Shown here: one piece after another, positions 49,973 through 56,462 of the stretch
Layout: every line of letters begins with the position of its first letter
How positions within the stretch are numbered: the first letter of the stretch is position 1
Assembly: GCF_009177065.1 (NCBI RefSeq)
Contig: NZ_WEZF01000003.1
Location: forward strand, 1 to 64,000
Length of the DNA stretch: 64,000 nucleotides
Direction of reading: 5' to 3'
Source of the DNA: Tautonia marina
Lineage (GTDB): Bacteria; Planctomycetota; Planctomycetia; Isosphaerales; Isosphaeraceae
Program-made: the position numbers and the translations under genes
Notes under the pieces: generated by a model
The model's database searches: none
What the model was told of the DNA's origin: nothing
Seen by the model: the letters and a program-made list of their open reading frames with translations, nothing else

Positions 49973-50212
49973 GAAATTGCGATCATTCGGTTTGAATTGG
50001 CCGGCGATGGGGCCGGTTCTCCGGGTCTTGCTCAAGAAAATTCTCTTTCGAAGCGAGAACCTGGATTCTTGCCGTCCCTTGCTTGGGACGGTACCTTCCC
50101 CGAATCTCCGTAAGTTTCCCGCCCCCGGGCTCGATCCAGGTTGCTCAGTTATCGCGGCTTAGCGAGTGCAGCCGACCCTCCACGATCCCGAAACGGCAGT
50201 CAAAGGAACCTC

Positions 50213-51160
50213 ATGACGATGGAGACCTTGGCACAGCCCAAGTCCCGGGCGACGAAGATCGCCTGGCCCCCCCTGATCTGGATCGCCGGGTTACATGCGG
50301 GGGCGTTGCTTGCGTTCTTCCCCCAGTTCTTCAGCTGGAAGGCAGTGGCGGTCTGTTTGTTCCTGCACTGGCTCTCCGGTGGCATTGGAATTTGCATGAC
50401 GTACCACCGGCTCCTGACGCACCGGAGCTTCGCGGTTCGTCCGAAGTGGCTTGAATACGTGATGACGGCAATCGGTTGCACCGCTTCCGAGGGGGGGGCG
50501 ATTCACTGGGTGGCCGACCACCGGAAGCACCATGCCCACTCGGACGATGAGAACGATGTGCATAGCCCCCTGCACGGTGGGTTCGGCTGGGCTCACATGT
50601 TCTGGTGGATGACGCCGGACATCACCTCGGAGCATACCCCCGCCTATCATGCCCGATGGGCTCCGGACCTGATCCGCGACCCGGTTCACGTTTGGCTGGA
50701 TCGCTGGCACCTGATTTTCCCGATCGGCCTGGCTGTCTTGCTGTTTGCGATCGGCGGGATGCCGTACCTCGTCTGGGGCTTCTTCGTTCGATCAGTCCTG
50801 GTCTTGCACACGACCTGGCTCGTCAATTCGGCGACGCATGTCTGGGGTTATCGATCGCACGACACTCGGGATTCGTCAACGAATCTCTGGTGGGTTGCAC
50901 TGCTGACCTACGGCGAAGGTTGGCACAACAATCATCATGCGTTCCAGACGTCGGCCCGGCATGGTCTGCGATGGTGGGAATTTGACATGACCTACATGGC
51001 GGTCAAGCTCATGTCGTGGGTTGGCATGGCACACTCGATCAAGCTGGCGAAGGTCAAGCCGCAGGCGGCAACCAGTGTGGCGGCCGTTTCCTCGGACGAG
51101 GCGCCACCGGTTCGATCGCACGTGACCCAGCCGAAGCCTGCCGTGGGGGTTGCCAAGTAA
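50213..51160 (+). CDS. membrane fatty-acid delta-9-type desaturase
   Basis: 315 residues. Introduces a double bond into acyl chains with a di-iron centre. Three histidine boxes are seen: HRLLTH (65-70), HRKHH (103-107) and HNNHH near residue 240. Four membrane helices frame them, as in acyl-CoA/acyl-lipid desaturases of the OLE1/DesC type. AAAGGAA precedes the ATG at 50213. A C-terminal tail of about 40 residues is disordered. Probably contributes unsaturated lipids for membrane fluidity. No ferredoxin or reductase gene is adjacent. A terminator-like hairpin follows at 51255. Confidence 0.92.
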   Translation: MTMETLAQPKSRATKIAWPPLIWIAGLHAGALLAFFPQFFSWKAVAVCLFLHWLSGGIGICMTYHRLLTHRSFAVRPKWLEYVMTAIGCTASEGGAIHWVADHRKHHAHSDDENDVHSPLHGGFGWAHMFWWMTPDITSEHTPAYHARWAPDLIRDPVHVWLDRWHLIFPIGLAVLLFAIGGMPYLVWGFFVRSVLVLHTTWLVNSATHVWGYRSHDTRDSSTNLWWVALLTYGEGWHNNHHAFQTSARHGLRWWEFDMTYMAVKLMSWVGMAHSIKLAKVKPQAATSVAAVSSDEAPPVRSHVTQPKPAVGVAK

Positions 51161-51311: not shown

Positions 51312-51652
51312 GCGGCCCTAGCTCAACGGCAGAGCAGGGGACTCATCAATCAATGGTGGCACCGGAAGGTAACTTTCGGCTGCGAACCGGGTGAATTGCG
51401 GGAAGCCTAAACCGTGTGAGCACGCCATGAGTCGTGACGGCAAGGTAATCCGCAGCCAAGCCTGGTCGGGCACTGGTGGCCAGGACGGTTCAGAGACTAG
51501 CGGGGTGAGTCCCAACAATAATCCCCGCCGATGAGCGCCCGGCCTCCCTCCGAGGGGCAACCCTCGGTGGGGAGGATGAGATAGTCCGAGCCCCGTGGAA
51601 ACGCGGGGGCCCTCGAATCCCTTGGTTGCAGGTTCGAATCCTGCGGGCCGCA
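51312..51652 (+). tRNA. tRNA-Ile2 (CAU) interrupted by a group I intron
   Basis: Exons 51312-51346 and 51616-51652 join to a complete tRNA: acceptor GCGGCCC/GGGCCGC, D arm GCTC/GAGC, anticodon stem GGGGA/TCCCT with loop CTCATAA (anticodon CAU) and T arm GCAGG/CCTGC with TTCGAAT, discriminator A, CCA not encoded. The CAU anticodon could mean Met or lysidine-modified Ile; the ACTCATAATC and CTTGGT surroundings are close to bacterial tRNA-Ile2, and the initiator features are absent, so Ile2 is preferred. The intron lies directly after the anticodon, the same position as in the Azoarcus tRNA-Ile(CAU) ribozyme gene. Confidence 0.9.
51347..51615 (+). ncRNA. group I self-splicing intron (IC3-like), 269 nt
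   Basis: The 5' exon ends in U (CAU) and the intron ends in G, as group I introns require. The guide GTG at 51356-51358 pairs with the exon CAU including the G-U wobble at the splice site, as in Azoarcus. Core elements are readable: P AATTGCGGGAAGCC (51394-51407), Q AATCCGCAGCCAAGCC (51447-51462) giving P4 GCGG/CCGC, R with GACTA (51495-51499) and S with TAGTC (51582-51586) giving P7, a long P8-side hairpin with a GCAA loop, and P9 with a GGAA loop before the last G. GTAA caps P2. There is no protein gene inside, so no homing endonuclease. Confidence 0.92.
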
Positions 51653-51695: not shown

Positions 51696-53795
51696 ATGGA
51701 TGGTTATCCGCTGGCCGAGCCTCCCCCTGACGATCGATCGCCTCGGAACGCGACTGAGGTTTCGGAGGGCGCTTCCCTGGAGGAGGCATTCTCTCACCCT
51801 CATCTGGTCGTTCCCCACCATTCTCGAGCGGTAACGCGCTGGGGCCGACTCCTGCGCCTGGTTGTGTTTCTCGGGGTGCTCATCGCTCATGCACTGCTGA
51901 GTTTCGCGTGCTTGGGGGGATGGTCAGAGGTTTCGAGTCGATGGCCTCTGGCGTGGCACGACCACCCGATGCATTACCACAATGCGTTGGTCACACGGTC
52001 CTTTTTCGTCCAAAACGGGACGACGGCCGGTTACGATCCGTACTTCATGTCCGGATATGCGAAGAGCATCGTTTCGGACCCGTCCGGGACGATGATCGAA
52101 GGCGTCATTGCCGTGTTCGGGCGCGATCGACCGGCGCAGACGTACAAGATGCTGGTGCTGACCATCATGGTCATCCTTCCGTGGCTAATCGCGCTGACGA
52201 TCCGACTGGTCGGGGGGGGATTCGACGCGGTCGTTGCGGGCACGATCGCCTTCCTGGTTTATCTCTGGACCGACTTCCCGCTGGAATATGCAGGATTTGG
52301 GATGCTGGCGTTCTTGCTGGTGATCCCGTTGGGATTGGTGGTCCTCGCGCTGGTGGTGCGATTTCTGCGAGGCGGCGGATTCGTACGCTGGGTTCTCGCG
52401 ACGGTCGGCTCGGGGATGTTGATCTTTGTGCATCCTCTGGCCGCGCAGACGGTCGGACCGGCGGTGCTGGCGGCCTATGCCGCGGCGGTCGGATCGAGTC
52501 GCCGGTCAGGAGAACGCCTCCCGATTGGGAGGCATCTGGGGTTGCTGCTCATTCCGCTCGCGGTGCTGGCGATCAATGCGTTCTGGTGGCTCCCGGGAAT
52601 CATGCTCCGGGGAACCCGTGACCCGGACGGCGCAGATTTCTTCTCGCACCCGGAGCCGGTCTTCAGCCGGATTGCTCAGGTTTTCGGTCTGGATGTCCCG
52701 GCTCAGCCTCCGATCCAGATCATCCTGCTCGGTGGAGCGTTGCTGGGCCTGGCGGCCTTGCGCAAACGATGCCCCTTGCAGACGATGGGGCTTGGGGCCT
52801 TTCTCGTGATGGGCCTGTTCTGGGGCTATTTCGCCGGCTGGTTTCCCGCGTTCAACTTCCTCCAGCCTGGTCGGAACACGTACGCGGTGTATTCCGCGGC
52901 GGCGGTCGCGAGCGGGCTGGGTTGGTCCGCCTTGAGACGCCAACTGAGCCGAACGTCGATTCGTCTGGGTCGGTGGTTTCTCGTGGCGACGGTTCTGGTG
53001 TCGATCCGCGTCTTCGTTCCCTCGATGATCCAGAACATCGGATACCGAACGGGGCGGGAACCGGTCCCGGAGTTGGTCTGGCAAGCGGGGGAACTTCCTC
53101 GTGTTCGTTGGTTTGGACCAACGGGAAAAGCACCATTTCTTTCGAGTCGTCCGACGCCCGAACTGACCTGGCTTCTGGACCAGATTCAAACTCATTTCGA
53201 ACCCGGCGACCGTATTTATTATGAGGAGGGGGGGGAACAGCGAGGTGATCTGACTGACCCGTTCGGCGGGCATCGTTACGGGGGATTATTGCCAAGCCTG
53301 GCACGGGTTGAGGTCATCGGAGGTCCGTTCCTGAACGTCCCGGTGCGGGAGAACTTCACGCAATTCGGCATGGGCAAGTTGTGCGGCCTGGAAGCCTGGG
53401 GACGCGAGGAGTTTGAGCAATTCAGCCGCCTCTACGGCCCGGAGGGGATCGTTTGCTGGTCGGCTACCTCGCAGGAATTTTGCCGATCCCATCCTGATCT
53501 GGTCGAGATTGTCGCGGATCTGGGAACCTGGCTGATTGCGAAAGTGAAGGGGTTTGAAGGCGACGCCATTCGAGGCGAAGCCCGCGTGATTGCGGAGGCC
53601 GGAAAGCTCGAAGTGGAGCCGGTCGCCGTTGACGTTGACGGGATGATCGTGCTGCGGTATCACTCCGTTCCAGGGCTCCGGAGTGATCCTCCGGGGCTGC
53701 TTCGCGAGGTCGAGGAGCCGGGCGATCCCGTGCCATTCATCGGAGTGATTCGACCCGAAGGGCCGCTGACCATCGAATGGAATGCGTTCCCTTGA
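51696..53795 (+). CDS. polytopic membrane protein, GT-C-like glycosyltransferase candidate
   Basis: 699 residues. About 11-12 membrane segments lie between residues about 55 and 440, and the last 250 residues form an outward soluble domain. In the first external loop DPYFMSGY and DHPMHYHNAL hold acidic and aromatic residues in the place where GT-C enzymes keep their catalytic Asp. The overall plan resembles DUF6541/PTPS-related membrane proteins. It is followed 80 bp later by a GT87-type gene, which favours lipid-linked glycosyl transfer or surface glycan work. Not assigned to a family with confidence. Confidence 0.6.
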   Translation: MDGYPLAEPPPDDRSPRNATEVSEGASLEEAFSHPHLVVPHHSRAVTRWGRLLRLVVFLGVLIAHALLSFACLGGWSEVSSRWPLAWHDHPMHYHNALVTRSFFVQNGTTAGYDPYFMSGYAKSIVSDPSGTMIEGVIAVFGRDRPAQTYKMLVLTIMVILPWLIALTIRLVGGGFDAVVAGTIAFLVYLWTDFPLEYAGFGMLAFLLVIPLGLVVLALVVRFLRGGGFVRWVLATVGSGMLIFVHPLAAQTVGPAVLAAYAAAVGSSRRSGERLPIGRHLGLLLIPLAVLAINAFWWLPGIMLRGTRDPDGADFFSHPEPVFSRIAQVFGLDVPAQPPIQIILLGGALLGLAALRKRCPLQTMGLGAFLVMGLFWGYFAGWFPAFNFLQPGRNTYAVYSAAAVASGLGWSALRRQLSRTSIRLGRWFLVATVLVSIRVFVPSMIQNIGYRTGREPVPELVWQAGELPRVRWFGPTGKAPFLSSRPTPELTWLLDQIQTHFEPGDRIYYEEGGEQRGDLTDPFGGHRYGGLLPSLARVEVIGGPFLNVPVRENFTQFGMGKLCGLEAWGREEFEQFSRLYGPEGIVCWSATSQEFCRSHPDLVEIVADLGTWLIAKVKGFEGDAIRGEARVIAEAGKLEVEPVAVDVDGMIVLRYHSVPGLRSDPPGLLREVEEPGDPVPFIGVIRPEGPLTIEWNAFP

Positions 53796-55383: not shown

Positions 55384-55456
55384 TGCGGCGTGGAGCAGCG
55401 GTTAGCTCGCCAGGCTCATAACCTGGAGGTCGTAGGTTCGATTCCTACCGCCGCAA
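55384..55456 (+). tRNA. initiator tRNA-fMet (CAU), copy 1
   Basis: 73 nt. Position 1 U opposes A72, then GCGGCG pairs with CGCCGC. The D arm GGAGC/GCTC keeps the A11-U24 pair that marks initiators. Anticodon stem CCAGG/CCTGG with loop CTCATAA has A-U, G-C, G-C where E. coli has three G-C pairs. CCA is not encoded. Confidence 0.92.
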
Positions 55457-56389: not shown

Positions 56390-56462
56390 TGCACCGTGGA
56401 GCAGCGGTTAGCTCGCCAGGCTCATAACCTGGAGGTCGTAGGTTCGATTCCTACCGGTGCAA
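56390..56462 (+). tRNA. initiator tRNA-fMet (CAU), copy 2
   Basis: 73 nt; identical to copy 1 except for positions 4-5 (GG to AC) and 68-69 (CC to GT), which keep acceptor pairing. All initiator marks are the same. Confidence 0.92.

Follow-up and report, generated by a model that had tools for sequence, protein, structure and literature searches.

Here, we identify a group I intron in the tRNA-Ile(CAU) gene at positions 51312-51652 of the window, i.e., the whole stretch of 64,000 nucleotides of Tautonia marina DNA that was analyzed, and we find that this intron is conserved in the family Isosphaeraceae. Altogether, the data make it very probable that the intron is an ancestral ribozyme inherited together with its locus, that it resides in what appears to be the sole tRNA-Ile(CAU) gene of the genome, and that its lineage is one marked by a P7.1-type hairpin rather than the IC3-like one. 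An intron of this sort is known in kind; what is new is its lineage, its host family and its apparent fixation.

Several observations establish the intron and its boundaries. First, the Rfam group I covariance model RF00028 matches positions 51334-51608 with 73.7 bits (E 7.8e-17 in the 64-kb window; gathering score 50 bits), and no match besides the tRNA-Ile(CAU) intron was found in the 7.07-Mb genome at E up to 0.001. A preliminary description had proposed a 269-nt group I intron directly after the CAU anticodon of a planctomycete tRNA and had suggested this Infernal search as a check; the outcome that it named as contrary, a search without a group I match, did not occur. Second, precise removal of 51347-51615 joins 51312-51346 to 51616-51652 in a 72-nt tRNA with the anticodon loop CTCATAA, which places the insertion point at tRNA nucleotide 36, between U36 and A37. 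Because ARAGORN in its intron mode misplaces boundaries, exon joins were enumerated instead, requiring a T before the intron and a G as its last nucleotide. The U at the 5' site and the G at the 3' end described earlier both fit, and the U.G wobble at the 5' site and the terminal G are present in 40/40 introns, but neither is independent evidence because both were imposed when choosing the boundaries. An independent sign for the 3' end is the covariation in P9.0, beside the terminal G, where A-U is replaced by G-C in 10 of the 40 introns. Third, the precursor RNA has a folding z-score of −4.01, and none of 100 shuffled sequences was as stable. The G+C content of the intron (0.636) is that of the window (0.633). 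Among all 41 introns at this site, 40 from the family and 1 from elsewhere, no frame stays free of stop codons for more than 125 amino acids, so that, judged by length alone, there is no room for the usual homing endonuclease, as the preliminary description had held. The genome falls in the family Isosphaeraceae and in one genus with G020, G087 and G099; the corresponding intron of G087 is 280 nt long.

The fold of the intron is kept by selection. The 40 whole family introns, that of the window included, were aligned with their exon ends and then folded, and P7 was added to the folded structure by hand as a pseudoknot. In the resulting structure of 75 pairs, 97.6% of 2996 cells are paired compared to 91.8% in shuffles, and 26 pairs have changes on both sides compared to 14.1 (sd 1.9) in shuffles, with 0/500 shuffles reaching as high a number. 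Pairing falls to 38.0-53.3% when the partner is slid by 1 to 3 columns, a comparison that favors the structure over its slid versions since it was derived from the same alignment. Covariation is found in P2, P5, P6, P8, P9 and P9.0 and at single pairs in P1 and P3. Because the pairs of P4 and P7 are invariant and those of P3 nearly so in the 40 family introns, little if any covariation comes from these helices; in the stem of the P7-P3 hairpin, changes within the family are confined to one side. The GUG guide opposite CAU, recognized in the preliminary description, is invariant in the alignment; the adjacent P1 pair, within the intron, is C-G except for U-A in 3 and U-G in 2 of the 40. The complete P3-P4-P5-P6-P7-P8-P9 core is present, together with the P, Q, R and S elements that had been read from the sequence before and that we place at 51393, 51447, 51487 and 51580 (Table 1).

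Table 1. Features of the interrupted tRNA-Ile(CAU) gene, its intron and its neighbors in the window
Feature	Positions	Strand	Evidence or remark
Fatty acid desaturase gene	50141..51160	+	upstream; PF00487; recurs at 30/40 family loci
5' exon of tRNA-Ile(CAU)	51312..51346 (35 nt)	+	ends in anticodon C34 A35 U36; exon join is a tRNA in ARAGORN
Group I intron	51347..51615 (269 nt)	+	RF00028, 73.7 bits; exon joins
GUG internal guide (P1)	51356..51358	+	pairs with anticodon CAU; U36.G in 40/40 aligned introns
P2 hairpin	51359..51383	+	both-side changes in 7/9 pairs
P3 5' strand	51387..51393	+	partner 51536-51542; alignment and fold
P4 5' strand, in P element	51397..51402	+	partner 51449-51454 in Q element
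P5 hairpin	51406..51445	+	2 P4-adjacent pairs invariant; further 5/5 change on both sides
P6 hairpin	51455..51489	+	3 pairs invariant; 4 of the next 6 with both-side changes
R element	51487..51499	+	P7 5' strand GACTA (51495-51499) pairs with TAGTC (51582-51586)
P7-P3 hairpin (P7.1 position)	51500..51528 (29 nt)	+	GCGGGGTGAGTCCCAACAATAATCCCCGC; conserved loop GUGAGUCCCAACAAUAA
P3 3' strand	51536..51542	+	alignment and fold
P8 hairpin	51543..51575	+	both-side changes in 4/8 pairs
S element with P7 3' strand	51580..51587	+	P7 partner 51495-51499
P9 hairpin	51592..51607	+	both-side changes in 3/5 pairs
P9.0 3' strand ending in terminal G	51612..51615	+	partner 51587-51590; A-U to G-C in 10/40
3' exon of tRNA-Ile(CAU)	51616..51652 (37 nt)	+	exon joins; genome search with joined tRNA
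ORF, 699 aa, no Pfam match	51696..53795	+	downstream; recurs at 23/40 family loci

The best reading of this tRNA is tRNA-Ile2(CAU), the lysidine type. It has the CAU anticodon and an anticodon arm, GGGGACTCATAATCCCT, that we take to be of the tRNA-Ile2 type, and TilS is found in the same genome (165.4 bits). When the joined tRNA was searched against the genome (E up to 0.001), it matched the two halves at 51312-51652 and three other matches, which fall at tRNA-Lys, tRNA-Arg and tRNA-Leu genes. Thus, no second tRNA-Ile(CAU) copy was found in this genome; because the genome is 97.76% complete, a sole copy is likely but not certain. A standard ARAGORN run leaves the gene out; when introns are permitted, the program moves the boundary and reports tRNA-Arg(CCG), and this mode gives the same Ile tRNA the names of Arg, Gln, Pro and other tRNAs. 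Annotators should, therefore, be warned that a common tool misses or misnames this tRNA. The silence of the standard run would also fit a dead interrupted copy, the work being done by another gene. We consider the chance of this to be very small: no other tRNA-Ile(CAU) was found in the 97.76% complete genome, TilS is present, the joined exons form a sound tRNA, and the intron covaries strongly.

The distribution of the intron was followed in 397 genomes of the class, including 45 of the family Isosphaeraceae and 352 others. RF00028 has a match in 84 of the 397 class genomes and in 43 of the 45 family genomes. Comparison of the same tRNA in other Isosphaeraceae, as suggested in the preliminary description, revealed an intron at this site (Ile36) in 41/45 family genomes from 20 of 21 genera, whole in 40 of them and in two contig pieces in G076. 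As for the other four, the contig of G147 ends 25 nt into the tRNA, and no such tRNA was found in G135 (where a weak match is a tRNA-Arg), G163 (which likewise has a weak match) and G115; three of these four genomes are 64-77% complete, and G115 is 96% complete. The uninterrupted anticodon arm, sought by exact match to the pattern GRCTCATAATCYCTWGG, which would miss a copy with another stem, was found in 0/45 family genomes and in 119/352 class genomes outside the family. Outside the family, a non-match does not imply an intron because 19 of 28 pattern-negative genomes have a contiguous match of at least 70 bits, judged by score, to an Ile2-type tRNA; in family f2, the tRNA stem seemingly differs, so that the pattern seems to miss it.

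Exon joins could be assigned at 75 of 97 places, namely 41 at Ile36 (40 in the family, 1 outside), 12 at Ile33, 9 at Leu34, 7 at Lys34, 3 at fMet33, 2 at Asn35 and 1 at Arg36. At L030, the preferred join was one with less than the highest script score, its exons being those of the family tRNA; at Asn35, a Thr reading scored equally and the Asn joins were preferred on the fit of the tRNA type; and the boundaries of L034 were set by hand. The 22 places without a join comprise 11 in rRNA, L041 (Ile36) and L032 (Lys34), both cut by contig ends, and 9 others, of which all but 4 were covered by the rRNA check. The rRNA group I introns are those of other planctomycetes, 10 loci being in 23S (L002, L005, L006, L015, L018, L020, L051, L066, L070 and L081) and L008 in 16S; L018 has two.

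The preliminary description had considered the intron to be either stably inherited or moved in trans. The presence across the family, the shared neighbors and the congruence with RpoB favor the former, and vertical inheritance of the intron with its locus is best supported. RpoB served as the host marker, with reading frames chosen by similarity. The RpoB tree covers 36 of the 40 genomes in which the intron is whole; G123, which has no RpoB match, and G107, G151 and G175, which have fragments of it, are left out. Across these 36 genomes, distances in the intron and RpoB trees have a rank correlation of 0.634, and 0/2000 permutations were as high. Genus g5 branches farthest out in both trees under midpoint rooting. 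On the other side, the two trees have only 10 of 33 bipartitions in common, the Tautonia-like genus among them, and five of the nine genera that could be tested are broken up in the intron tree, although support for the branches concerned is weak. Moreover, some neighbor gene of the window is found at 38 of the 40 family loci, a count based on more than 3 kb of sequence at 19 loci and less at the rest. Because the RpoB correlation and the shared neighbors point the same way, one acquisition before the radiation of the family is favored, and the last common ancestor of the sampled family probably already carried the intron. If the intron were instead a recent mobile arrival, kept by a trans-acting endonuclease or by reverse splicing, the related ribozymes seen in viral contigs, and those in various tRNA species of other phyla, would be readily accommodated, as would the patchiness of another intron, Lys34, within the family (9/45 genomes). 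However, such an arrival is highly improbable given that the exact pattern detects an uninterrupted arm in none of the 45 family genomes, that a window neighbor accompanies the intron at 38/40 loci, that intron distances track RpoB distances, and that blastn of the intron against phage and plasmid records gave no match at E up to 0.001.

The Lys34 introns are different group I introns, which lie after U34 of tRNA-Lys(UUU). The nine loci are L054, L068, L073, L076, L097, L024, L034, L032 and L228; seven are placed by join or by hand, one is cut by a contig end and one was read from its ends only.

The layout of the intron had also been matched to that of the Azoarcus tRNA-Ile(CAU) ribozyme. This likeness holds for the insertion site after U36 and the CAU/GUG P1, and both introns are small, without an endonuclease and in the same tRNA. 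It does not extend to the core: that of the window intron carries a P7.1-type hairpin and clusters apart from planctomycete IC3-like introns. IC3 introns are not known to have P7.1/P7.2 between P7 and P3. By contrast, a hairpin is paired between P7 and P3 in 40/40 aligned family introns, and its position, that of GCGGGGTGAGTCCCAACAATAATCCCCGC in the window, is where IA-type introns carry P7.1/P7.2. IA introns are recognized by P7.1 together with P7.2; the window intron has one hairpin, and a second one, directly behind the P7.1-type hairpin and placed as P7.2 would be, is seen in three relatives from genus g5 (L011, L023 and L036). According to passages of the respective articles, P7.1/P7.2 hairpins serve in classing group I introns (PMC3984707), IA2 introns of IStrons have P7.1 and P7.2 hairpins in domain 7 (PMC4227781), and those of the Twort intron encircle the guanosine pocket (PMC1995217). 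The Azoarcus intron is assigned to IC3 in an excerpt of PMC4498298 and in a reference title in PMC3984707.

Comparisons among planctomycete introns agree with this distinction. The hairpin is absent in Leu34 (L057, L060), Lys34 (L054, L024) and rRNA introns and in L045, a comparison made without Ile33, fMet33 and Arg36 introns, in which the script did not find the R element or misplaced it. Rfam has one group I model for all subgroups. A profile was built from planctomycete Leu34, Ile33 and fMet33 introns, which we take to be IC3-like from their sites and 3' ends. None of the 40 family Ile36 introns exceeds 18.1 bits with this profile; with their own family profile, they score 210.6 to 281.1 bits, a range that is circular. 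L045, from genome G015 of family f4, is the sole Ile36 intron outside the family and is in neither profile; it scores 74.1 bits with the IC3-like profile versus 45.9 bits with the family profile. Because these scores go the opposite way to those of the family introns, it seems that introns came to occupy the Ile36 site twice. The planctomycete Asn35 introns are intermediate (65.5 and 52.5 vs 35.8 and 38.6).

Thus, on the hairpin, the profile scores and a core tree that sets the family Ile36 introns apart from the IC3-like group, we reject IC3 membership, planctomycete IC3-like introns rather than the Azoarcus sequence serving as stand-ins. An Azoarcus-type intron, inherited or transferred from the same lineage, would explain the shared site and guide, and Ile2 group I introns, similar by description in their host tRNA, are reported for Acidovorax and Burkholderia in part of PMC8450103; with a core that differs in this way and L045 showing how an IC3-like intron scores at the very same site, we nevertheless find this origin improbable.

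IC3-like introns also occur at another site in other planctomycete families. They lie after U33 of tRNA-Ile(CAU) in L049, L059, L061-L064, L071, L078, L080, L083, L086 and L087 and after U33 of the initiator tRNA in L053, L069 and L074, sites that differ from Ile36. L045 is a single-genome case of an IC3-like intron at Ile36 itself.

Relatives of the window intron were found beyond the planctomycetes. A core pattern of 20 letters matched 62 stretches in named genomes, which we sorted into 30 planctomycete and 32 other stretches. Joins fall at Ile36 in 27 of the 30, and among the 32 others at tRNA-Asn(GUU) after U35 in 18, with none in 7; tRNA-Lys(CUU) is the best join in two Gammaproteobacteria. 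The hosts of the Asn35 introns include Saccharibacteria, other Patescibacteria, Omnitrophota, Chloroflexi, an Acidobacteria and a Nitrospirae MAG, names that may err in the case of MAGs. At several of the Asn joins a Thr reading scores equally well, and some joins have low scores; since GGCTGT is present in many of the 5' exons themselves, the Thr reading was not adopted. One match to the core pattern, L161, seemingly arose by chance. Introns of the window core type are also present in tRNA-Lys(CUU)-like genes of Proteobacteria MAGs (L165, L199 and L207, the join of L165 being less clear), and the same core is found in the Chloroflexi/Acidobacteria introns L169, L176, L185, L191, L205, L206 and L209. 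The five of these that were compared in this region (L169, L176, L191, L205 and L209) have no P7-P3 hairpin, possibly an earlier state.

The hairpin loop motif GTGAGTCCCAACRATAA occurs in at least 120 viral stretches. In the 80 script-readable motif-bearing viral loci, a GACT R element lies at most 16 nt upstream of the motif at 74/82 places, and 21/21 distinct viral stems pair 5/5, compared to a mean of 3.19 when dealt anew. Accordingly, viral-contig group I introns with the loop GUGAGUCCCAACRAUAA have the window-type hairpin behind the R element. They differ from the window intron in that a search for tRNA joins at 90 viral motif places yielded none and that the three loci checked adjoin coding sequence, i.e., for a major head protein (L237, L254) and a ribonucleotide reductase (L302). 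The family profile outscores the IC3-like profile in 78 of 79 viral sequences (74 chosen by loop motif, 5 by core pattern), a preference that is partly built in because the sequences were selected by a shared motif; the lineage comparison as a whole rests in part on sequences chosen for a shared core or loop motif. A core tree of 94 rows included 13 of the 40 family introns, L045, 9 Leu34, 3 fMet33, 1 of 12 Ile33 and 24 of 79 viral introns, only some family and viral rows being entered and rows with an uncuttable core being dropped. In this quick tree, which warns of long branches, viral, Asn, Lys-type and patescibacterial introns make up a group (98) within which the 13 family introns cluster together (92); the IC3-like introns, L045 among them, stand in a separate group (99).

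These sequence comparisons suggest that the ribozyme belongs to the P7.1-hairpin lineage of viral contigs, tRNA-Asn and apparently tRNA-Lys and not to the IC3-like lineage. The P7.1-type hairpin in this way ties tRNA introns of several phyla to viral introns and raises the question of the direction of transfer. As a tentative scenario, which we hold to be possible but on balance doubtful, a P7.1-hairpin lineage widespread in viral contigs may have entered tRNA anticodon loops several times, at U35 of Asn, apparently at U36 of Lys(CUU) and at U36 of Ile(CAU), refitting its guide each time; it may then have become permanent in the seemingly only AUA-decoding tRNA of the Isosphaeraceae, where, with the guide reading the anticodon itself, splicing would license lysidine and isoleucine identity, and an IC3-like intron may have taken the same site independently in another planctomycete family.

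In group I splicing generally, guanosine attack is followed by exon joining at the terminal G. The analysis directly shows the sequence, covariation and distribution of the window intron, and we infer that it is probably excised in this way. The transcript would fold such that the GUG guide pairs with the anticodon CAU itself, forming P1 with a U36.G wobble, and guanosine would attack after U36. The terminal G, positioned by P9.0, would then mark the 3' site and the freed 5' exon would attack there, the exons being held together by the anticodon stem GGGGA/UCCCU. C34 would be paired as long as P1 is formed, and TilS would therefore add lysidine, and IleRS would act, only after splicing. The steps follow the pathway outlined in part of the review PMC3984707.

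Among known systems, a close parallel in persistence is the cyanobacterial tRNA-Leu(UAA) intron, which lies after U34 and belongs to subgroup IC3. Like the window intron, it has long been kept in a tRNA across a lineage; it differs in tRNA, site and subgroup. In the part of PMC4033280 available, this intron is described as ancestral and at the same position in cyanobacteria and plastids, and bacterial tRNA group I introns are described from cyanobacteria and a few alpha- and beta-proteobacteria. The tRNAscan-SE 2.0 article mentions, in one passage, 36 genomes that seemingly lack fMet or Ile2 tRNA owing to group I introns; those named are cyanobacteria, Acidovorax and Burkholderia (PMC8450103). 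In the available text of the bacterial group I intron review PMC3984707, a term count gave no word starting with 'planctomyc'. Our literature search by title found nothing on planctomycete tRNA group I introns, and 'group I intron' was absent among the matches listed for the genus names; most subscription literature lies outside this search, and we do not claim that such introns are unpublished. A planctomycete family that keeps an intron in its seemingly only tRNA-Ile(CAU) gene provides a second natural system for intron permanence.

The window contains two further tRNA(CAU) genes, both initiator-like and on the + strand, at 55384-55456 and 56390-56462, ~1 kb apart. They are identical except in the acceptor stem, where the differences are compensated (GCGGCG/CGCCGC vs GCACCG/CGGTGC). 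Initiator tRNAs usually have a mismatch at 1/72; both of these tRNAs start with U1 facing A72.
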